NCBI GenBank assembly: GCA_035533475.1
Contig: DATLTS010000025.1
Coordinates: 124,001-188,000, forward strand
DNA length: 64,000 nt
Reading direction: 5' to 3'
Source: Mycobacteriales bacterium
GTDB lineage: Bacteria; Actinomycetota; Actinomycetes; DATLTS01
Made by a program: the position numbers and the translations under genes. Under the pieces are notes generated by a model. It did no database searches. It worked only from the letters and a program-made list of their open reading frames with translations, and was not told the origin of the DNA. This document shows, piece by piece, positions 10,124-33,994 of this stretch; the stretch's first letter is position 1, and every line of letters begins with the position of its first letter.

Positions 10124-11026
10124 GTGAGTCTGCGGGCCAATCGCGTCCTTGCGGTGCTCGCGCTGCTCGCAGTCTGCGCTATCTGGGGCGCCACCTTCGT
10201 GGTGGTCAAGGACGCGATCGCGCGGATGTCCGTGGCGGACTTCCTGGCCTGGCGCTTCGCGCTGGCCGCGGTGGCCATGGTGGCGCTGCGCCCGAACGCG
10301 GTCCGCCAGCTCGGCGCGGTGGGGCGTCGCGATGGCGTACTGCTCGGGCTCGCCCTGGGTGCCGGCTACCTGTTGCAGACCTACGGCCTGCGCTCCACGC
10401 CGGCCTCGGTGTCTGGCTTCATCACCGGGATGTTCGTGGTCTTCACACCGCTCGGCGCCGGCATCCTGCTCCGTCGCCCGGTCGGGCCGATGGCGTGGCT
10501 GGCCGTCGTCGTCGCGACCGTGGGCCTGGGCCTGCTGGCGCTTCGCGGCTTCGCGGTCGGTACCGGCGAGCTGCTGACGCTCGGGTGCGCGCTCGCCTTC
10601 GCCATCCACATCGTCGGGCTCGGCGAGTGGTCGGCGGGAAGAAACCCGGTGGCACTCGCCGTGGTCCAGCTCGCCACGGTAGCCGCGCTCGGCGCGGTCG
10701 CGGCGCTACTCGCCGGCGGTGCCGTCGGGCTGCGGCCGCCGCCCGACGCCGGCGTCTGGGGGGCGCTCGCGCTCACCGCACTGGCTGCCACCGCCCTGGC
10801 CTTCGTCGTCCAGACCTGGGCCCAGTCCCTGCTCTCCCCGACCCGAGCTGCGGTGGTGATGACCACGGAGCCGGTGTTCGCCGGCATCTTCGGCGTCGCC
10901 CTGGCCGGTGACCAGCTCGGCTGGCGTCAGCTGGCCGGGGCCGGGCTCGTCCTCATCGCCATGCTCCTCGTGGAAGCGCGCCCCCGACGGTTCGCGGGCG
11001 AACAGATCCGCCGGTTGGAGATCTGA
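10124..11026 (+). CDS. EamA/DMT-family transporter
   Basis: Inner-membrane permease of the drug/metabolite transporter superfamily (300 aa) with about ten predicted helices arranged as two EamA repeats. The first repeat shows AIWGATFVVVKDAI and FLAWRFALAA; the second ends AAVVMTTEPVFAGIFGVALAGD, a typical EamA block. Probably exports a small metabolite or amino acid; the substrate is not predictable. GTG 10124 is chosen because of the leaderless -10 element. Confidence 0.87.
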   Translation: MSLRANRVLAVLALLAVCAIWGATFVVVKDAIARMSVADFLAWRFALAAVAMVALRPNAVRQLGAVGRRDGVLLGLALGAGYLLQTYGLRSTPASVSGFITGMFVVFTPLGAGILLRRPVGPMAWLAVVVATVGLGLLALRGFAVGTGELLTLGCALAFAIHIVGLGEWSAGRNPVALAVVQLATVAALGAVAALLAGGAVGLRPPPDAGVWGALALTALAATALAFVVQTWAQSLLSPTRAAVVMTTEPVFAGIFGVALAGDQLGWRQLAGAGLVLIAMLLVEARPRRFAGEQIRRLEI

Positions 11027-11085
11027 GGCCGACTTAGGCCGTCCGGCCGATCAACCGGATCCGCCAACGCGCCGATCGGTCGGGG

Positions 11086-12396
11086 GTGGAGGACCGCTGC
11101 CAAACCTGCCGTGCCAAGCTGCCGAGCAGGGCAGCCTGGTGCGGGCAGTGCTTCGCCCCGGTCGGGCCGCCGCGGGCATCGATCGCCGCGCCCCTGACCG
11201 AGCGGCGGGGCACGTCCGGCTATCCGGCCACGAGTCCGGTGGCGCTGCTCGAAGCACCGCCCGCCGCGCCGCCGCGCGCCGTTCCGGTCCCGGGGCGACC
11301 CCCCGGCGGTCCCGACCCCGCCCGCTCGCGCATCGGGTGGACGACCGTCCTGGTGGTGGGAGCGATCCTGCTCGGGGCCCTGCTCCTCGAAGTCGTCATG
11401 CCGCTGCTCGACTCGAGAAACCGGCTCGAGTCCGACGCGGCGATGCGCTACGGCATCGTCCTGACCGTCCTGCTCTACGCGCTGGTCGGCTCCGCCGTGC
11501 TGGTTTATCTGCACCGGACCGGTCATCGACTGCGCTGGCGTTGCGGACCGCCCTGGCGGGGGGTCCTGCTCGGGGTGGCCTGCGGCGGGGCTGCGGTTGG
11601 TCTGCTCCTCATCTTGACCAGTGCGATCACCGGGCACGTCACCACCGATCCCCGGATCACCCAGCTCGTCAGCGACGGCAGCGTCTCCCGGATCCTCGCC
11701 GCCGTGCTCATCACGGTGGTCGCGGCGCCGCTGGTCGAGGAGACCCTGTTCCGCGGGGTGTTCGCCGAGTCGCTTCGCCCGCGCGGCACCGCCGCGGCGA
11801 TCGCGGCCTCGGCGTTCGCCTTCGCCGCGTGGCACCTCAACCCGACGGCGTTGCGCTACTACGCCCTGATGGGGGTGCTGTTCGGCCTGCTGTACTGGCG
11901 GCGCGGCCTGTTCGCATCGATCGCCGCGCACGCCACCTTCAACGGCGTCCTCACCGCGATCGCCATTGCCGGGGTCCTCGGTCCGGCCCATTCCTACTCG
12001 GTCGATGGGCTCACCCTGCAGGCGCCCGCCGGCTGGTCCGAGGTGTCGTCACCGCAGGTCGGCCTCGAACTCACCGGGCCGTCCGGCGCCGCCCTGGGCA
12101 TCGCCGTGGAGCCGGACGGAAATGCGCAGCCCAGTCCCGGGGACATCCTGGCCAGGCTCGAGCAGAGTCGGGGGTCCAACCCGATTCTGGAGTCGGCGGA
12201 CCTAGCCGGCGCGGAACAGCTCGATCTGCCGGCGGGTGTCGCACTCGACGTCACTTCCAGCCTGGGCGGCCACCCCTTGCAGATCGTCTACCTGCCCGAG
12301 CCCGGCACGATGTACGTGATCACCGTTGCGACCGAGGGAAATGTCCGGGCGGAAGCCGACGCCCCCGACATCCTCCGGTCCGTACGCATCGCCTGA
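11086..12396 (+). CDS. CPBP-family intramembrane metalloprotease with N-terminal zinc ribbon
   Basis: Multi-pass membrane protein (436 aa). A four-cysteine zinc ribbon (C5, C8, C19, C22) precedes a Pro-rich linker. The CPBP/Abi core spans about 85-300 with the motif pair EETLFRG (E218, E219), WHLNPTA (H250) and AHATFN (H282), which form the catalytic metal site of this family. A C-terminal domain of about 120 residues starting near VDGLTLQAPAGWSEV resembles small soluble lipoprotein-like modules and is not part of standard CPBP proteins. Function may be processing of a membrane or secreted protein. The GTG start has only a weak ribosome site. Confidence 0.8.
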   Translation: MEDRCQTCRAKLPSRAAWCGQCFAPVGPPRASIAAPLTERRGTSGYPATSPVALLEAPPAAPPRAVPVPGRPPGGPDPARSRIGWTTVLVVGAILLGALLLEVVMPLLDSRNRLESDAAMRYGIVLTVLLYALVGSAVLVYLHRTGHRLRWRCGPPWRGVLLGVACGGAAVGLLLILTSAITGHVTTDPRITQLVSDGSVSRILAAVLITVVAAPLVEETLFRGVFAESLRPRGTAAAIAASAFAFAAWHLNPTALRYYALMGVLFGLLYWRRGLFASIAAHATFNGVLTAIAIAGVLGPAHSYSVDGLTLQAPAGWSEVSSPQVGLELTGPSGAALGIAVEPDGNAQPSPGDILARLEQSRGSNPILESADLAGAEQLDLPAGVALDVTSSLGGHPLQIVYLPEPGTMYVITVATEGNVRAEADAPDILRSVRIA

Positions 12397-12552
12397 CCGG
12401 GGGTCCGGCCCCGCGCTGCGCTATCGTGCGCCGCAGGCCGCCAGATCCGGTACCGGCCCGCGCCGATCGGGCGCGGACCCGCCGCTTCGGCCGATCTGCC
12501 AAGACCACCGAGCAAACGAGACCCGGGTCTCGGCGTCCAGGGAGCGACGGAC

Positions 12553-13578
<1,026 letters not shown>

Positions 13579-13582
13579 CTCG

Positions 13583-14632
13583 TCAGTCGGCCGAACGAAG
13601 GGTCCGGCAGATGACGTCCGCGGCCCGGTTCGTACCGGCGTCGTCCACATCCAGGTGGGTGACCAGCCGGACCCGGCGCGGTCCGAACACGGAGATCAGC
13701 ACACCCTCGGCCCGGCACCGATCACCGAGTCGGGCCGCGTCCACCGGGTGCCGGGTGAGGTCGATCGTCACGATGTTCGTTTCGACGTCGGCGGGGGCCA
13801 CGACCTCGGGGGCGGCGTCGGCGATCCGATCGGCTAGCCGCCGGGCGCGGGCGTGGTCGTCCGCGAGCCGGTCGAGGTGATGGGCCAGTGCGTAGCGACC
13901 GGCGGCGGCAAGGACGCCGGCTTGGCGCATGCCCCCGCCGAGCGCCCGGCGCAGGGTCCTGGCCCTGGGGAGCACGCCGGCATCGCTGAACACGGCCACC
14001 GATCCGACCGGAGCGCCCAGACCCTTGGACAGGCACACCGACAGCGTGTCGAACAGGGCCCCGTAAGTCGCGTAGGGCACCCGTGACGCGACCGCCGCAT
14101 TCCAGATCCGCGCCCCGTCGCAATGCAGCGCGACCCGGTGCTCGGTGGTCAGCGCCCGGAGCGCCTCGAGTCGGTCCAGCGGGTACACCGCTCCGCCGCC
14201 CCGATTGTGCGTCTGTTCGATCGCCAGCGCCCGCGTGGGGACCATGAAGTAGCCGTCCGGGCGCAGCTGCGCACCGACCAGCTCGGGGTCGAGACGACCG
14301 CGCACCGCGGGCAGGGTCCGGGTCTGAATGCCGCCGTGCATCGCCGCGCCAGCGCCTTCGTAGGTGACCACATGCGCGTCGGTGTCGCATAGCAGCTCCT
14401 CACCGGGGGCGACGAGCAGCCGCAGGCAGAGTTGGTTGCCCATCGTCCCGCTCGGCACGAACAGCGCGGCGGGCTTGCCGAACAACCCGGCGACCTCGGC
14501 TTCCAGGGCCGCGACCGTCGGGTCCTCCGCGTAGACGTCGTCGCCGACCTCCGCGGCCGCCATGGCGGCCCGCATCTCCGGCGTCGGTCGGGTCACGGTG
14601 TCGGAACGCAGGTCGACGACGTCGGCGACCAC
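13583..14632 (-). CDS. ltaE: Low-specificity L-threonine aldolase
   Basis: PLP enzyme (349 aa) cleaving L-threonine or allo-threonine to glycine and acetaldehyde. Motifs: DLRSDTVTRPT at the N-terminus, VPSGTMGNQL, DGARIWNAAVAS and the PLP-lysine segment VCLSKGLGAPVGS. GTG 14632 is chosen because AGGGGAGG lies just upstream and the protein then begins at the conserved DLRSDT region; a longer in-frame reading has no family similarity. A -10 TACTTT lies about 43 nt upstream and overlaps the divergent promoter of the next gene. Confidence 0.88.
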   Translation of the reverse strand: MVADVVDLRSDTVTRPTPEMRAAMAAAEVGDDVYAEDPTVAALEAEVAGLFGKPAALFVPSGTMGNQLCLRLLVAPGEELLCDTDAHVVTYEGAGAAMHGGIQTRTLPAVRGRLDPELVGAQLRPDGYFMVPTRALAIEQTHNRGGGAVYPLDRLEALRALTTEHRVALHCDGARIWNAAVASRVPYATYGALFDTLSVCLSKGLGAPVGSVAVFSDAGVLPRARTLRRALGGGMRQAGVLAAAGRYALAHHLDRLADDHARARRLADRIADAAPEVVAPADVETNIVTIDLTRHPVDAARLGDRCRAEGVLISVFGPRRVRLVTHLDVDDAGTNRAADVICRTLRSAD

Positions 14633-14673
14633 GGCACCTCCCCTGAACTCGTCCACGCGATGATCCGGCCACC

Positions 14674-14685
14674 TAAAGTATCCGC
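14674..14685. promoter_or_regulatory. Overlapping divergent -10 elements
   Basis: The heptamer TAAAGTA at 14674-14680 reads TAAAGT on the plus strand, 6 nt before the GTG at 14686 (leaderless), and TACTTT on the minus strand (14680-14675), from which the threonine aldolase leader with its GGAGG site would start near 14668. The two RNA polymerases cannot occupy the site together. Confidence 0.5.
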
Positions 14686-16047
14686 GTGGCGGACCGTTCG
14701 ACTGCGCTGGTCTCGGCGCAGGACTACGTCGCCGTCGTCCGCAGCTATGCGGATCGGGTGCACGACCTGCTGCGCCGGACCGGATGCCCACCGGACGCGG
14801 CTGCCGAGATCACCCAGATCAGCGCCGTCGAGCTCGCCGGGGCGCTGGCGAACGACCCGTCGAGGGTCTCGGACCTGGTCGGATGGTGGGTCGACCGGGC
14901 ATTGCGGCTGGCCCGGCGGGTGGCGGAGCAGGCGCCGACGACGCCCGGCCGGGCCCGCTCGCAGCCCACCGGGGTGCTCGCCGGAACCACCGACGAGACG
15001 GAGCTGAGCGCGACCCTCGATCGGCTCCCGACGCGCGAGCGGATCGCCGTTCTGCTCCGGGACGCCTACGACCTGCCGTCGACCAGCGTCGGCGTGGCGC
15101 TATCCGCCACCGAGGACGTGGCCTCGGCAACGGTGACCCGGGGCCGGCTCGCACTGGCCGGTGCCGGCGCACCGGTGCCCGACCTGGGCGACCATGCGGC
15201 CCGGCCGGCCGTCACCCTGGGCGCTCTCGGCCGGCTGGCCGACGGCTCCCTGCCGAGCGTCCAAGCGAACTCGCTGCGCCGCCACGTCGCGACCTGCGCG
15301 GCGTGCTCCGCCATCGTGGCCGCGGCGACCACGGGCCGTCGACTCGCCGCCGGCCTGCCGGTACTCGCCTTGTCGGACGAGGATCGGGACGAACTGCTGG
15401 CCGAGGTCGGCAAGCGGGCCGCCGGGCAGTTGCCGAGCGCGGAGGAGATCGCACTCGCCCGGGAGGAGGCGGCGCGACCACGAACGATGTCGGCCGGCAT
15501 GATCGCCGGCAGCATCGCACTCGCGCTGGCACTAGGGGTGATCGTCGCCTACGCCACCCGACCCTCGGCAACCCCACCGGCGGCGGGATTCGGTTCCTCG
15601 CCGGGTGCCGCCGCCACGTCGAGTCCCACCCCGTCCGGCACGCCCAGCCACCGGCCCAGCGCGAGCGCTGACCGCAGCCCCGGGCCGGCCCCCTCGACCC
15701 CGCCGGCCGGGCAGGGCCCGGCCACCTCGGGACCGCCCAGACCCCCGACCAGCTCCCCGCGTCCCAACGGACCGGCCGCGATCACGATCAGCCCGACCAG
15801 CGGGCCGAACGGGACCGTGGTCAGCGTGACCGGCGACGGATGGTCGCCGAACAGCCCGGTCACCGTCTCATTCATCGACCACACCGGGGTGACCCGTTCG
15901 GTGAGCACGGTGAGCGCGGACTCGAACGGCGCGTTCACCGCGACCGTGACGGCGACCGGGGACCCGGGGCTTCTCCCCTCGACCTGCACGGTCCGCGCCA
16001 CCGGATCCGGCCGGACCGCCAGCCAACGCTTCAACCGGACCCTGTGA
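14686..16047 (+). CDS. Membrane protein with sigma-70-like, zinc-finger and Ig-like domains
   Basis: A 453-residue fusion I cannot assign to a named family. Residues about 10-160 resemble a diverged ECF sigma factor: a region-2-like helix set (AAEITQIS, LVGWWVDRALRLARRV) and a region-4-like segment (LDRLPTRERIAVLLRDAYDL). Next comes HVATCAAC, an HxxxCxxC zinc motif like those of ZAS anti-sigma factors (H200, C204, C207). One membrane helix lies at about 271-290, followed by a Pro/Ser/Thr-rich linker and an IPT/Ig-like domain (about 365-453) outside the cell. It may be a membrane-bound regulator or a degenerate sigma/anti-sigma pair now in one chain. Leaderless promoter at 14674. Confidence 0.7.
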   Translation: MADRSTALVSAQDYVAVVRSYADRVHDLLRRTGCPPDAAAEITQISAVELAGALANDPSRVSDLVGWWVDRALRLARRVAEQAPTTPGRARSQPTGVLAGTTDETELSATLDRLPTRERIAVLLRDAYDLPSTSVGVALSATEDVASATVTRGRLALAGAGAPVPDLGDHAARPAVTLGALGRLADGSLPSVQANSLRRHVATCAACSAIVAAATTGRRLAAGLPVLALSDEDRDELLAEVGKRAAGQLPSAEEIALAREEAARPRTMSAGMIAGSIALALALGVIVAYATRPSATPPAAGFGSSPGAAATSSPTPSGTPSHRPSASADRSPGPAPSTPPAGQGPATSGPPRPPTSSPRPNGPAAITISPTSGPNGTVVSVTGDGWSPNSPVTVSFIDHTGVTRSVSTVSADSNGAFTATVTATGDPGLLPSTCTVRATGSGRTASQRFNRTL

Positions 16048-16053
16048 CGGGGG

Positions 16054-17526
16054 CTAGGACCGGGCCCAGCCGCCGGCCCGGCGGACCGCCGCCTGCCAAC
16101 GCCGGTACCCGGCGTCCTCGGGCGCCCCGGGATCGAAACGACGATCGAGCTGCCAGGTCTGGCCGAGTTCGTCGGTCGACCCCCACACCCCGGTGGCGAG
16201 GCCCGCCAGGAACGCCGCGCCCAGACCGGTCGTCTCGAGCATCTTCGGCCGGGACACCGGGATCTGAAGCGTGGTGGCTTGCAGGCCGCAGAGCAGATCG
16301 TTGGCGGCGGCGCCCCCGTCGACCGTCAGCTCCGGAACCGGCAGGCCGGCGTCTCGCACCATGACGTCCACCACGTCCCGAACCTGGTAGGCGATCGCCT
16401 CCAGGGTGGCCCGCACCACGTGCGCCCGGGTTGTGCCCCGGGTCAGCCCGAACAACGTCCCACGCGCCTCCGGGTCCCAGTGCGGCGCACCGAGACCGGT
16501 CAGGGCGGGGACGAAGACCACGCCGCCGCTGTCTGGAACGCTGCGGGCCAGGGCGTCGCTGTCGGCCGCGGCGTCGATGATGCGCAGCCCGTCGCGCAGC
16601 CATTGCACCGCGGCCCCGGTGGCGAAGATGGCCCCCTCGAGCGCGTAGCGGGGACCGTCCCCGAGGTCCCAGGCGACGGTCGTGAGCAGCCCGGCCGGGG
16701 AGCGGGCGATCGTCCGACCGGTGTTGACCAGGACGAACGACCCGGTCCCGTACGTGCATTTCGACCTGCCCTCGGTGAAACAGGCCTGCCCGAACAGGGC
16801 GGCCTGCTGATCGCCGGCGACCCCGGCGATCGGCAGGTCGAGGCCGAGAAAGGCTTCCGGATCGGTCCGCCCGAAATCACCGGAGGACGGCCGGATCTGT
16901 GGCAACGCGGCGCGCGGGACGCCGAACAGGTCGAGAAGCTCATCCGACCAGTCGTTGGCCTCGAGCCCGTAGAGCAACGTCCGGGAGGCGTTGGACGGAT
17001 CGGTCGCGTGGACCCGGCCGGCGGTGAGCCGGGCGACGAGGTAGCTGTCCACGGTGCCCAGGGCGAACCGCCCGTCGCGGACCCCGGACCAGGTCGCTGG
17101 GTCGTGCTCGGCGAGCCACGCGAGCTTCGTGGCGGTGAAGTACGGGTCCAGCCGCAGACCGGTGAGCTGCGCCACCCGCGCCTCGTGTCCCGCCTCCTGC
17201 AACCCTCGGCACACGTCGGTGCTCCGCCGGTCCTGCCAGACCACCGCCGGCCGAGGCGCCGCGAGCGAGCCGCGGTCCCACACGACCGCGGTCTCCCGCT
17301 GGTTGGTGATCCCCACCGCTACCGGCGGGTGGGGGCCGGCCTCGACGGCCTCCCGGCAGGCGGCGAGCACGGCCTGCCAGATCTGCTCGGGGTCGTGCTC
17401 CACCCAACCGGGCCGGGGGAAATGCTGCGGGAACTCCCGGTACCCCCTGGCCACCACCCCGCCGTCGGGAGCGACGAGCAGCGCGGTGACACCGGTCGTG
17501 CCGGCGTCGATGGCGAGCACGCTCAC
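16054..17526 (-). CDS. glpK: Glycerol kinase
   Basis: FGGY-family kinase (490 aa) phosphorylating glycerol to glycerol 3-phosphate. It has the ATP-binding start VLAIDAGTTGVTALL, the substrate blocks GITNQRETAVVWD and VVWQDRR, GVAGDQQAALFGQ, TYGTGSFVLVNTG and the C-terminal VDGGAAANDLLCGLQA. The length matches GlpK. No glpF or glpD is adjacent. A leaderless -10 (TAGGGT) lies 8 nt upstream of the GTG. It shares the minus strand with the RlpA-like gene, 22 nt away, but has its own promoter. Confidence 0.92.
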   Translation of the reverse strand: MSVLAIDAGTTGVTALLVAPDGGVVARGYREFPQHFPRPGWVEHDPEQIWQAVLAACREAVEAGPHPPVAVGITNQRETAVVWDRGSLAAPRPAVVWQDRRSTDVCRGLQEAGHEARVAQLTGLRLDPYFTATKLAWLAEHDPATWSGVRDGRFALGTVDSYLVARLTAGRVHATDPSNASRTLLYGLEANDWSDELLDLFGVPRAALPQIRPSSGDFGRTDPEAFLGLDLPIAGVAGDQQAALFGQACFTEGRSKCTYGTGSFVLVNTGRTIARSPAGLLTTVAWDLGDGPRYALEGAIFATGAAVQWLRDGLRIIDAAADSDALARSVPDSGGVVFVPALTGLGAPHWDPEARGTLFGLTRGTTRAHVVRATLEAIAYQVRDVVDVMVRDAGLPVPELTVDGGAAANDLLCGLQATTLQIPVSRPKMLETTGLGAAFLAGLATGVWGSTDELGQTWQLDRRFDPGAPEDAGYRRWQAAVRRAGGWARS

Positions 17527-17540
17527 GGCGCGAAACCCTA
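17527..17540 (-). promoter_or_regulatory. -10 element of a leaderless promoter (glpK)
   Basis: Minus-strand TAGGGT at 17540-17535 followed by 8 nt and the GTG at 17526. It lies in the short gap after the RlpA-like gene. Confidence 0.5.
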
Positions 17541-17548
17541 TGGCAGGG

Positions 17549-18580
17549 TCAGCCGGTCGGGGTCAGCACGGTGATCTGCACCTGGGCCAGGCCGTCGTAG
17601 CCGAGCGCGCGCGACCCGGCGCGCGACATGTCGATGACCCGCCCGGCGACGTACGGCCCGCGGTCATCGACGAGGCAGTTGACCGCGCGCCCGTTGGCGG
17701 TCACGTGCACGACCGTCTCGAGCGGGACAGTGAGCATCGCGCAGGTCAGCTTCTCCGGGTCGTACGGCGCACCGGAGGCGGTCAGACTTCCGACGAAACC
17801 GGGTCCGTACCAGGACGCGACGCCGGTGATCACCGCGCCGCTCGGGGCGTAGCCGGCGGGAATCCCCGGTCCAGCGGCATCGAGAACGGCGAGCACCGGG
17901 GCCTCAGCACGCTCGACGGCCAGGCCGGATGGCCCGACCTCGATCGCAACCGAGTTGGTCACCTGGGCGGAGAGCTGCGCCAGGGCCGCCCGGGCGGCGG
18001 CCTGCTGCACGCCGTACACCGCCTGCTCCTCGTCGAGGACCGCGATCGCCTTCTCGACCGCGGACTCGGCGGCCATCGCCGGCCCGAGCAGCTGACGGCG
18101 CAGGGCTTCGAGGCGCACCCGGAGCTGACCGACCGCCGAATCGGCCCGGTCGACCTCCGCGACCAGCGAGTCGTCGACCGCCACCTGATTCTGCGCGGAC
18201 AGGGCAAGGACCTGGACGTCGGTGGGGGCGAGACCCGCGATCAGGGCACTGAACGGATCGGGCTGATCGGCCTCGTAGACCCGTCGGATCTCCGCGTTGA
18301 GCCGGTCCTGGAGCGCGGCCCGGGCTGCGAGCAGCCGATCGTAGGACACCCGGAGGGACTCGGACCGGGCGACCGCGACCTCCAGCAGACCGGCGGCCTG
18401 GTCGGCCTGCACCCGAAGAGCCCCGACCTGGGCGGAAAGCGACGCGAGGTCACCGACCGTGACCGGCTGGCCGGCCGGTGGGGCCGGCGGGGGGCCGGCG
18501 GCGTGCGCTCCCGCCGCCGGCCCCAGCGCGAGTCCCGCGGCGGTTGCGCCGGCCACGACGGCCCGCGTGATCAGTCCCAC
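17549..18580 (-). CDS. Secreted coiled-coil protein with RlpA-like double-psi beta-barrel domain
   Basis: Exported protein (343 aa). A signal peptide (about 1-27, ending GAHA-AG) is followed by a long Ala/Leu/Glu coiled coil (about 45-220) and an RlpA-like DPBB domain (about 245-340) with ASWYGPGFVGSLTASG and DRGPYVAGRVIDMSRAG, the latter containing the acidic residue conserved in RlpA and 3D proteins. Architecture resembles actinobacterial coiled-coil cell-wall hydrolases. RlpA-family members cleave or bind naked glycan strands; whether this one is active is not clear. The GTG at 18580 has no strong ribosome site. Confidence 0.8.
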   Translation of the reverse strand: MGLITRAVVAGATAAGLALGPAAGAHAAGPPPAPPAGQPVTVGDLASLSAQVGALRVQADQAAGLLEVAVARSESLRVSYDRLLAARAALQDRLNAEIRRVYEADQPDPFSALIAGLAPTDVQVLALSAQNQVAVDDSLVAEVDRADSAVGQLRVRLEALRRQLLGPAMAAESAVEKAIAVLDEEQAVYGVQQAAARAALAQLSAQVTNSVAIEVGPSGLAVERAEAPVLAVLDAAGPGIPAGYAPSGAVITGVASWYGPGFVGSLTASGAPYDPEKLTCAMLTVPLETVVHVTANGRAVNCLVDDRGPYVAGRVIDMSRAGSRALGYDGLAQVQITVLTPTG

Positions 18581-18656
18581 CTGGGGGACGTCGGCGGATC
18601 CAGGCTCCGGCTTGACCGGCGGCTACGCTCCCAGCCGCAGAGCTAAGGAGGGTCTC

Positions 18657-21048
<2,392 letters not shown>

Positions 21049-31707: not shown

Positions 31708-33347
31708 GCGACGACCTCCTCACCCCGACCACCGGGCCGACCCGGCGGCTCAGCGTCCTCACCCGGGGGGGGTTGCTAGTCCTCTGTGGCGTCCTCAACG
31801 CCGCGCACGGCGACCTGCTGAGCGGCTACCTCTGGGTCGCCGCCCTCGCGGTCGCCGCCGCCGCAGTCACGCTCGGCCCGAGCGGGCGGCGGGCCGGCCG
31901 GGCAGGGCGCCTCGCCGAGTCAGCGATCGCGGCCGTGGGCATCGTCGCAACCGGTGGATCGACCAGCCCGCTGTTCCCCTACCTGCTCGCACCCGCCTTC
32001 GTCGGTGGCCTCAGCGACGAGGTGGAGGCCGCGCTGGCCCCCGCCGGCGTCGCGATCGCGGTGCTCGCGGTCGGGCGGATAGTGGCCGACCAGCGTGACC
32101 AGCTGTCCGGATACGCGGCGACCGGAGCCGAATGGTGCCTGATGGCCGTTGCGCTGGTCCTGGTCGCCGCCTGGATCCAGCGGCTGCTCCAACCCCCTGG
32201 CGCGGAGCCACAGAACTCATACGTGACGGCCTATCGGCTGCTGGCCCAGCTCCGGACCGTAGCCCGGCAGCTGTCCGTCGGTCTGGACACCTTGACCCTC
32301 GCCGACGGTCTGCTCACCGGCATCGGCGCAGTCGCTCGATACGACCGGGCCGCGGTGTTCGTCCGGTCCCGCGGCGAGCACGTACTCCAACTCGCTCACC
32401 GCGGTGATCGCGGTGAGCCGCTCGACTGGCGGCCGGACCTGGGCGGCGAGAACCCATTCGCCGATGCCTGGCTGTCCCAGCAGCCCCAGGTCGTGGGTAG
32501 TCAACTGAGCGCCGGCCGGCCCGGCAGCGCCCTCGTGCTACCGCTCCGGCTCGGGTTGCGCACATTCGGCTTGGTCGCCGTAGAGATCGGCGCTAGTGGG
32601 GCGTACCCGGCGACGCTCGTCCGCACCATCGAGCCCATCGTCGCGGACGCGTCGCTTCGATTGAGCGCGGCCATGCTTTTCGACGAGATCCGCGAATTCG
32701 CCACGGTAGAGGAACGGCGCCGGCTGGCCCGCGAGATCCACGACGGCATCGCCCAGGAGCTGGCCTCGATCGGCTACTTCGTCGACGGACTGACCGCCGA
32801 GGCCCGCGGCACCGAGTTGGAAGCCCATCTGCGCGAGCTGCGCCGCGAGGTCAGTCGGATCATCAGCGAGTTGCGGCTGTCCATCTTCGACCTGCGCAGC
32901 GACGTCGAGCAGCACGGCGGACTCGGCGCCGCACTATCCGAGTACGTGCGGGCCGTAGGGGCTAGTAGTCCGTTCACCGTTCACCTGTCCCTGGACGAAG
33001 GGCCGGTCCGGCTGCCCGCAGACGTCGAGGCCGAGCTACTCCGGATCGCCCAGGAGGCCATCACCAATGCCCGCAAGCACGCCAACGCACGAAACCTCTG
33101 GGTCGACTGCACGGTGGATCCACCGCACGCCCGGCTGCGGGTCGACGACGACGGCGCCGGGCTCAGCCCGGGCCGGGACGACAGCTTCGGACTCGAGATC
33201 ATGCGGGAGCGAGCCGCGCGGCTTCGCGCCCGGCTGTCGATCGTCGGTCGCCAGCCGACCGGCACGTCGGTCGAGGTGGTTCTCGGCGTCGCGCCGGAAA
33301 TCGTTACGGTAGGTGACGAACAGCGAGCGGCGCCCACGGGGAGGTGA
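31704..33347 (+). CDS. Sensor histidine kinase, NarL/DesK type with GAF domain
   Basis: Membrane histidine kinase (547 aa). About five or six hydrophobic segments occupy residues 20-165. A GAF-like domain follows (about 180-335), then the HisKA_3 dimerisation helix with the phosphorylated His in LAREIHDGIAQELASIGYF, and an HATPase domain with EAITNARKHANA and VDDDGAGL. Start GTG 31704 overlaps the ligase stop by 4 nt. The response regulator starts 2 nt after its stop. The signal is unknown; membrane state or a fatty-acyl product is plausible given the operon. Confidence 0.88.
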   Translation: MSDDLLTPTTGPTRRLSVLTRGGLLVLCGVLNAAHGDLLSGYLWVAALAVAAAAVTLGPSGRRAGRAGRLAESAIAAVGIVATGGSTSPLFPYLLAPAFVGGLSDEVEAALAPAGVAIAVLAVGRIVADQRDQLSGYAATGAEWCLMAVALVLVAAWIQRLLQPPGAEPQNSYVTAYRLLAQLRTVARQLSVGLDTLTLADGLLTGIGAVARYDRAAVFVRSRGEHVLQLAHRGDRGEPLDWRPDLGGENPFADAWLSQQPQVVGSQLSAGRPGSALVLPLRLGLRTFGLVAVEIGASGAYPATLVRTIEPIVADASLRLSAAMLFDEIREFATVEERRRLAREIHDGIAQELASIGYFVDGLTAEARGTELEAHLRELRREVSRIISELRLSIFDLRSDVEQHGGLGAALSEYVRAVGASSPFTVHLSLDEGPVRLPADVEAELLRIAQEAITNARKHANARNLWVDCTVDPPHARLRVDDDGAGLSPGRDDSFGLEIMRERAARLRARLSIVGRQPTGTSVEVVLGVAPEIVTVGDEQRAAPTGR

Positions 33348-33349
33348 CC

Positions 33350-33994
33350 ATGGCGACGAGCGTGCTTCTCATCGACGACCACGACCTGATCCGGCAGGGC
33401 CTACGCCACGCGTTCGAGCGCGACCAGGGCTTCACCGTCGTCGGCGAGGCGGGAACGATCGCGGAGGGGCTGGAGCTGGCGAGCGCGCTCGAGCCGGACG
33501 TCGTGATCATGGACCTCCGGCTCCCGGACGGCAATGGCCTAGAAGCGACGCGGAAGCTGCGCGAGCTCTCCCCCACCTGCGGGATCGTGGTTCTCACGAT
33601 GTACGCCGGCGACGAGCAGCTGTTCGGCGCCCTGGAAGCCGGCGCGTCCGCCTTCGTGGCGAAGGACGCCCCCGCCGAAGACGTCGTCGCGGCGGCCCGG
33701 CACGCGGCCTCGTCCCCGTCGGCGTTCACCGCGTCCGATCTCGCGGACGCGATGCGCCGCCGCCTGTCCCCGAGTGGCCCGCAGCTCAGCCCGCGCGAGA
33801 AGCAGGTCCTCAGGCTGCTGGCCGACGGCCTCGCCGTGGCGCAGATCGCCCGACAGCTCTACATCAGCGAGTCCACGGCGAAGACCCACATCTCCAAGCT
33901 CTACGAGAAGCTCGGCGCCGGAAACCGGGCCACCGCGCTGATGACCGCCATGCGGTTGGGGCTGATCCGGTCCGAGAGCGGAGAACGGCCCTGA
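33350..33994 (+). CDS. LuxR/NarL-family response regulator
   Basis: Two-component output protein (214 aa). The receiver has the acidic pair in LLIDDHD, phospho-acceptor D55 in VVIMDLRLPDG, T in VLTMYAG and K in FVAKDAP. The C-terminal LuxR helix-turn-helix (about 148-208) contains LSPREKQVLRLLADGLAVAQI and ESTAKTHISKLYEKL. ATG 33350 follows GGGGAGG at 5 nt; an upstream GTG overlapping the kinase stop is less likely. Cognate partner of the preceding kinase. Convergent with the glycosyltransferase gene after 3 nt. Confidence 0.92.
   Translation: MATSVLLIDDHDLIRQGLRHAFERDQGFTVVGEAGTIAEGLELASALEPDVVIMDLRLPDGNGLEATRKLRELSPTCGIVVLTMYAGDEQLFGALEAGASAFVAKDAPAEDVVAAARHAASSPSAFTASDLADAMRRRLSPSGPQLSPREKQVLRLLADGLAVAQIARQLYISESTAKTHISKLYEKLGAGNRATALMTAMRLGLIRSESGERP

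Follow-up and report, generated by a model that had tools for sequence, protein, structure and literature searches.

The gene and its family

The window, by which we mean the whole 64,000-nucleotide stretch of DNA that we analysed, carries at 14686-16047 on the plus strand an open reading frame of 453 amino acids that begins with GTG. The first-pass annotation had described it as a sigma-like part, a zinc finger, a membrane helix and an Ig-like domain, in that order. The order holds, as does the proposal that sigma-like and anti-sigma-like modules share one chain. The features, with the evidence for each, are as follows.

13583..14632, minus strand: ltaE/GntG-family threonine-aldolase-like PLP enzyme, the divergent neighbour (conserved beside the gene in the relatives examined)
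14674..14680, plus strand: predicted symmetric -10 element, TAAAGTA, whose TAAAGT ends 6 nt before the GTG (conservation of TANNNTA)
14686..16047, plus strand: the whole gene, a single-chain sigma-like / zinc anti-sigma / TM / Ig-like protein (ORF, relatives, alignments)
14716..14931, plus strand: sigma2-like domain, residues 11-82, three helices (AlphaFold, Foldseek, hhalign with shuffles, dN/dS)
14989..15159, plus strand: sigma4-like domain, residues 102-158, four helices, lacking the recognition-helix signature (Pfam Sigma70_r4_2, hhalign, AlphaFold)
15193..15351, plus strand: zinc anti-sigma domain (ZASD/ASDI), residues 170-222, three-helix bundle (zf-HC2, invariant ligands, HMM matches)
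15376..15474, plus strand: post-zinc helices, residues 231-248 and 252-263 (AlphaFold; helix 231-248 matches anti-sigma helix 4)
15493..15558, plus strand: single TM helix, residues 270-291 (hydropathy, AlphaFold helix)
15559..15765, plus strand: Pro/Ser/Thr/Ala-rich external linker, residues 292-360, disordered and fast evolving (composition, pLDDT, dN/dS)
15766..16044, plus strand: external Ig/TIG-like domain, residues 361-453 (AlphaFold, Foldseek, TIG matches)

The GTG start is backed by the family alignment and by a -10 hexamer that lies 6 nt upstream here and in most relatives. Of 395 Actinomycetes genomes sampled in a class-wide search with the single protein, 18, from six family-level groups, gave relatives at E < 1e-20; the family is present in at least 18 genomes of the class. 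In a pattern scan, the named records with the family were all Frankiales or Frankiaceae MAGs. A second match in the window's own genome (G000:C64) proved to be an ordinary ECF sigma and was set aside.

We aligned 11 and then 18 members, and counted residues and domains on 17 complete relatives. Invariant in both alignments are D23, D27, R31, G33, D63, G66 and W68 in the sigma2-like part, A121, L124, D126, Y128-P131, A138-L139 and R154-L155 in the sigma4-like part, and H170, H200, C204 and C207 in the zinc part. No NCBIfam model scored above its cut-off for the window protein. The family is unclassified, clade-restricted and monophyletic; as far as these searches show, it and the extent of its erosion, described below, are new. 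The gene is real and under purifying selection. Elsewhere in the window, at 10908-13880 and similar places, very long antisense ORFs (up to 990 aa) overlie real genes; these are probably an effect of high G+C and not genes.

A predicted leaderless promoter and a probably inserted gene

In family loci the divergent gene next door is ltaE, followed by aroG1 wherever the contig extends far enough; aroF2 (a class II DAHP synthase) and pfkA lie close by. At nine outgroup loci (L205, L207, L211-L215, L217 and L220), aroF2 directly neighbours ltaE on the same strand, with 0 to 180 bp between them, and no sigma-like gene that could be ancestral was found there. This is most simply explained by a single insertion, in antisense orientation between aroF2 and ltaE, that preceded the radiation of the clade. 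Among the genes adjoining the sigma-like gene we found no partner sigma or anti-sigma gene. The window has a rearrangement of its own, at 12553-21048, where the glpK-pfkA-aroF2 segment runs in the opposite orientation to that of the relatives.

Upstream of the gene, TANNNTA occurs in 16 of 18 members against 0.5 expected by shuffling, a count on related and not independent sequences. In the same number, a near-symmetric -10 (TAAAGTA or TAAGGTA) sits between the gene and the divergent ltaE (window 14632-14686). Its near-symmetry means that it could also drive ltaE; bidirectional promoters have been traced to symmetric -10 elements before (PMC12825309). In 15 members 6-7 nt separate the TANNNT from the start codon (L037 counted from a GTG one codon downstream), which implies that the mRNA is leaderless. 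In L033-L035 the start codon is an ATG, the element is 29-32 nt upstream, and a purine-rich, Shine-Dalgarno-like stretch precedes the ATG; this leader looks like a later addition. By eye, the upstream alignment holds no conserved GGAAC of the kind expected of an ECF-type autoregulatory promoter. The predicted promoter is a housekeeping-type -10 with, in most members, a leaderless mRNA.

Two sigma-like halves, unequally diverged

Would the N-terminal part match sigma-70 proteins in a profile search, as the first-pass annotation had proposed to ask? It does. The family profile is co-linear with Mycobacterium tuberculosis SigE over residues 18-159 (E 7e-4), and hhalign matches the family to 33 canonical ECFs with a probability of 97% (E 8e-11, a single-template E-value). 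Against ECF52-like proteins the probability is 97.9% (E-values again single-template), with a match that spans the zinc domain.

The sigma4 half is clear by profile: searched alone against 7145 ORFs it finds ECF sigmas throughout its top matches, and Pfam Sigma70_r4_2 matches 9 of 11 members. No Pfam region-2 model matches any of these 11, and the sigma2 profile alone finds nothing significant among the 7145 ORFs, which makes sigma2 the more diverged half by sequence. Its profile-profile scores, 23.7 and 26.1 in two tests, do lie above those of all 30 column-shuffled controls run for each, which peak at 16.1 and 19.1. The identity of sigma2 rests on domain order, this weak profile signal with its shuffle controls, and the predicted fold. 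Profile homology in the ECF order, sigma2 then sigma4, is thus present, with sigma2 weak by itself. The first-pass annotation had singled out region 4 as diverged; its signature is indeed lost, but region 2 has diverged further. A side effect of the Pfam model surfaced in the genome scan, where the helix-turn-helix of a NarL/MadR-type response regulator (window 33344-33994) scores as Sigma70_r4_2, so that sigma counts made with this model are too high.

AlphaFold places the sigma2-like helices at residues 11-31, 36-56 and 64-82. The first-pass annotation would have abandoned the sigma assignment had residues 1-160 not been helical; they are predicted to be helical and sigma-folded. Confidence is good for the full chain (pLDDT 82) and better for residues 1-292 modelled with 18 sequences (pLDDT 90, pTM 0.82). 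Each of the 26 best Foldseek matches in the PDB is an ECF sigma or a PhyR sigma-like domain (2lfw, target TM 0.58, and RT-PhyR among the latter), with modest E-values (0.004 and up) and high probabilities for most. Wrapped inhibitor-bound forms (CnrH-CnrY, SigW-RsiW, RpoE-NepR and PhyR-NepR) reach target TM 0.58-0.66 to the model, and polymerase-bound ECF forms 0.30-0.37. Sandwich-type complexes (SigmaE-RseA, AlgU-MucA) are also low, at 0.34-0.37, so the closed state modelled is of the wrapped kind. The model, then, resembles a closed, anti-sigma-bound state.

From the zinc domain to the cell exterior

The HxxxCxxC motif noticed in the first pass is HVATCAAC at residues 200-207, and it recurs in 18 of 18 relatives; the invariant H170 is a possible fourth zinc ligand. 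Pfam zf-HC2 matches all 11 members tested, and the zinc-part profile alone, run against the 7145 ORFs, has free-standing anti-sigma-like ORFs as its best matches. With helices predicted at 178-186, 191-203, 205-222 and 231-248, the domain has what defines a class I zinc anti-sigma factor: HxxxCxxC, an upstream His, a three-helix bundle and then helix 4. In known complexes helix 4 contacts sigma2 (PMC7406223).

There is one membrane helix, as first annotated. The Kyte-Doolittle profile (19-residue window) peaks at 2.3 at residue 270, its runner-up reaches 1.2, and AlphaFold draws a helix at 270-291. The linker that follows is 75% P/S/T/A, with a pLDDT of about 35-47. Beyond it AlphaFold builds an 8-strand Ig-like beta sandwich over residues 365-452, with pLDDT mostly about 95. 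Its PDB matches are neocarzinostatin (1nco, E 2e-4) and a carbohydrate-binding module (8wae, E 1e-3); TIG is matched in 3 of 11 members. The extracellular Ig-like domain of the first annotation is therefore there in the window protein, but it is not a fixture of the family. Linker and domain are found in 14 of the 17 complete relatives. In the remaining three (L027, L032 and L037) the protein stops shortly past the TM helix, and downstream of L027 and L032 no Ig-like domain was found. With the external domain optional, the conserved unit is sigma-like part, zinc domain and TM helix.

Eroded contacts, constrained sigma2

The positions that we take to be equivalent to sigma70 D403, Q406 and E407 were read off the hhalign columns. 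Among 33 canonical ECFs they hold D in 29, Q in 28 and an acid in 30. In the family the first is still acidic in 16 of 17 (E 14, D 2), the second is Q in 1/17 and E in 15/17, and the third is an acid in none of the 17; ECF52-like proteins have D at 407 in 21/21. The recognition-helix signature T-V-K fares no better: canonical ECFs have T in 23, V/I in 32 and K/R in 29 of 33, and the family has T in 2, V/I in 0 and K/R in 0 of 17. The region 2.3-2.4 stretch has a mean net charge of +3.0 in canonical ECFs and one of +3.7 in ECF52-like proteins, and members of the family range from -1 to +3 (mostly 0 to +2). For the region 4.2 stretch the figures are +4.0, +1.0 and 0 to +2. The recognition-helix and core-contact residues by which a canonical ECF sigma is recognised are, in short, largely missing. 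Judged by sequence, the family has lost the recognition-helix signature, much of the basic charge of 2.3-2.4 and 4.2, and the E407-type acid, and promoter reading may have gone with them. Loss in the recognition helix alone is no disqualification, because ECF52-like proteins also lack the signature and the charge.

None of this looks like neglect by selection. Across the cytoplasmic part dN is well under dS, lowest in sigma2, and the stalk and Ig domain drift fastest. In close pairs sigma2 is mostly the best conserved segment (identity 79-96%, dN 0.02-0.14, dS 0.22-0.67), and in all eight its dN is lower than or equal to that of the zinc and post-zinc segments. Were docking to its own inhibitor the sole task of sigma2, roughly equal constraint on both would be expected. 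That sigma2 is held at least as tightly as this inhibitor in 8/8 pairs suggests that it may bind a partner besides the built-in one.

How the protein might work

The computations yield the domain order, the conservation, the predicted closed fold, the eroded contacts, the leaderless housekeeping-type promoter and the position between aroF2 and ltaE. The reading we favour, tentatively and at somewhat less than even odds, is a one-component, self-inhibited, membrane-tethered ECF-type regulator that is released by proteolysis. The diverged sigma2-sigma4 would be held closed by the zinc anti-sigma domain that follows it C-terminally, and one TM helix would anchor the whole chain. The external stalk and its Ig/TIG domain, where present, would take up an envelope signal, which would trigger a cleavage that removes the anti-sigma part and frees the sigma module. 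The freed module could then dock on RNA polymerase by way of sigma2, which is strongly conserved, and alter transcription from a small number of unusual promoters. The window's genome encodes M50 site-2-type proteases, as do almost all bacteria.

This reading draws on the layout shared with ECF48, ECF52 and ECF53, for which proteolytic release is the published expectation (PMC8999054, PMC5826349), on a profile match to ECF52-like proteins that runs from end to end and takes in the zinc domain, on a model closest to inhibitor-bound and not polymerase-bound ECFs, and on the constraint on sigma2. It is weakened by the lost core-contact and recognition-helix residues and the lowered charge of region 2.3-2.4, by the lack of a visible ECF-type autoregulatory promoter in the upstream alignment, and by the three relatives without an external domain. 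Those eroded contacts make another account nearly as likely, and we rank it second: a clade-fixed, membrane-anchored sigma mimic that kept fold and inhibitor, lost promoter reading and acts by binding proteins. A PhyR-like module would mask the fused anti-sigma domain or bind another anti-sigma factor, and an envelope signal would expose either part and so tune a different ECF sigma in trans. That the recognition-helix residues, much of the positive charge of regions 2 and 4 and the E407-type acid are gone from all members under purifying selection, that PhyR domains are among the structural matches and offer a precedent for an ECF-like domain without sigma activity (PMC4598750), and that a housekeeping-like -10 drives the gene all speak for a mimic. 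Against it stand the absence of an adjoining partner sigma or anti-sigma gene, the acid still kept at the D403 equivalent, and ECF52, which also lacks the recognition-helix signature and whose member SCO4117 nevertheless affects transcription genetically (PMC5826349). The first-pass annotation had offered both a self-inhibited regulator and a non-transcriptional derivative, and both have survived.

We think it unlikely that the family is simply a diverged part of ECF52, descended from the fusion event that produced SCO4117 and working alike. The shared domain order and the profile match across sigma and zinc domains fit such an origin, and an AU test that forces the family together with the ECF52-like proteins does not reject the joint clade (p 0.35). 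In the sigma-domain tree, however, each is monophyletic and they stand apart (99/98 and 100/100); the family's sigma HMM scores free-standing ECFs above every ECF52-like protein, its zinc domain likewise prefers free-standing anti-sigma-like ORFs, and it lacks the basic R-x-W-L-Y that ECF52-like proteins keep in region 2.3-2.4 and their acid at 407. A decaying or non-functional gene is very improbable: the window protein's Pfam and NCBIfam scores all fall under curated cut-offs, but no fewer than 18 genomes, spread over six family-level groups, keep the frame intact, the zinc ligands are invariant and the promoter is conserved. These data would at most leave room for a recent loss of function in this one genome. 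A chance ORF or pseudogene is rejected on that conservation and on dN/dS.

The short list of one-component ECF sigma factors gains an unclassified family here, and with it comes a testable question: how far can the DNA- and polymerase-contact code erode before a sigma is reduced to a protein-binding module? With sigma2 more constrained than its built-in inhibitor, the family is also a good case for finding sigma2's other partners.

Comparison with known systems

The first-pass annotation saw here a candidate for an undescribed system, and that must be withdrawn for the architecture, which is of a known, ECF52-like kind. Actinobacterial proteins that join ECF sigma, zinc anti-sigma, TM and external domains are already on record as ECF48, ECF52 and ECF53 (PMC8999054, PMC5826349), and SCO4117 of Streptomyces coelicolor (ECF52) has been studied genetically (PMC5826349). 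Our 21 comparators, alike in layout, are called ECF52-like for their architecture and not on the strength of the official group model; in the window's own genome no such protein was found at E 1e-6. One other genome carries two in tandem (L160, G048:C1:4896829-4899237).

The family shares with these groups its actinobacterial setting, the ECF sigma, zinc domain and TM helix in one chain, the proline-rich external stretch leading to an external domain, and a recognition helix of reduced charge. It differs in opening directly with sigma2, in forming a separate clade in the tree, in the greater erosion of region 2.3-2.4 and of the core-contact residues (ECF52-like proteins keep both the basic motif and the acid at 407), and in its external domain, Ig/TIG-like and optional where that of ECF52 is of a carbohydrate-binding type.

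SigW-RsiW and other ECF and class I zinc pairs have the same closed sigma, HxxxCxxC bundle with helix 4 and membrane anchor, and RsiW is released by RIP (PMC4598750). They are encoded by two genes and keep canonical DNA- and core-contact residues, whereas the family has one chain and eroded residues. PhyR, the alphaproteobacterial sigma mimic, has an ECF-like sigma2-sigma4 fold and, in 2lfw, a similar closed shape. It is cytoplasmic, with a receiver domain and without zinc, TM or external domains; Pfam and NCBIfam scans of the window protein found no receiver domain, and in this it departs from the PhyR type. Its eroded contact residues would fit a sigma-like domain that binds an anti-sigma but not promoters. 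IutY of Pseudomonas putida (ECF243) likewise fuses sigma and membrane anti-sigma in one protein, a likeness we draw without sequence comparison, and intramembrane proteolysis has been shown to activate it (PMC8999054). Unlike the family, it serves iron-siderophore surface signalling in a Gram-negative bacterium.
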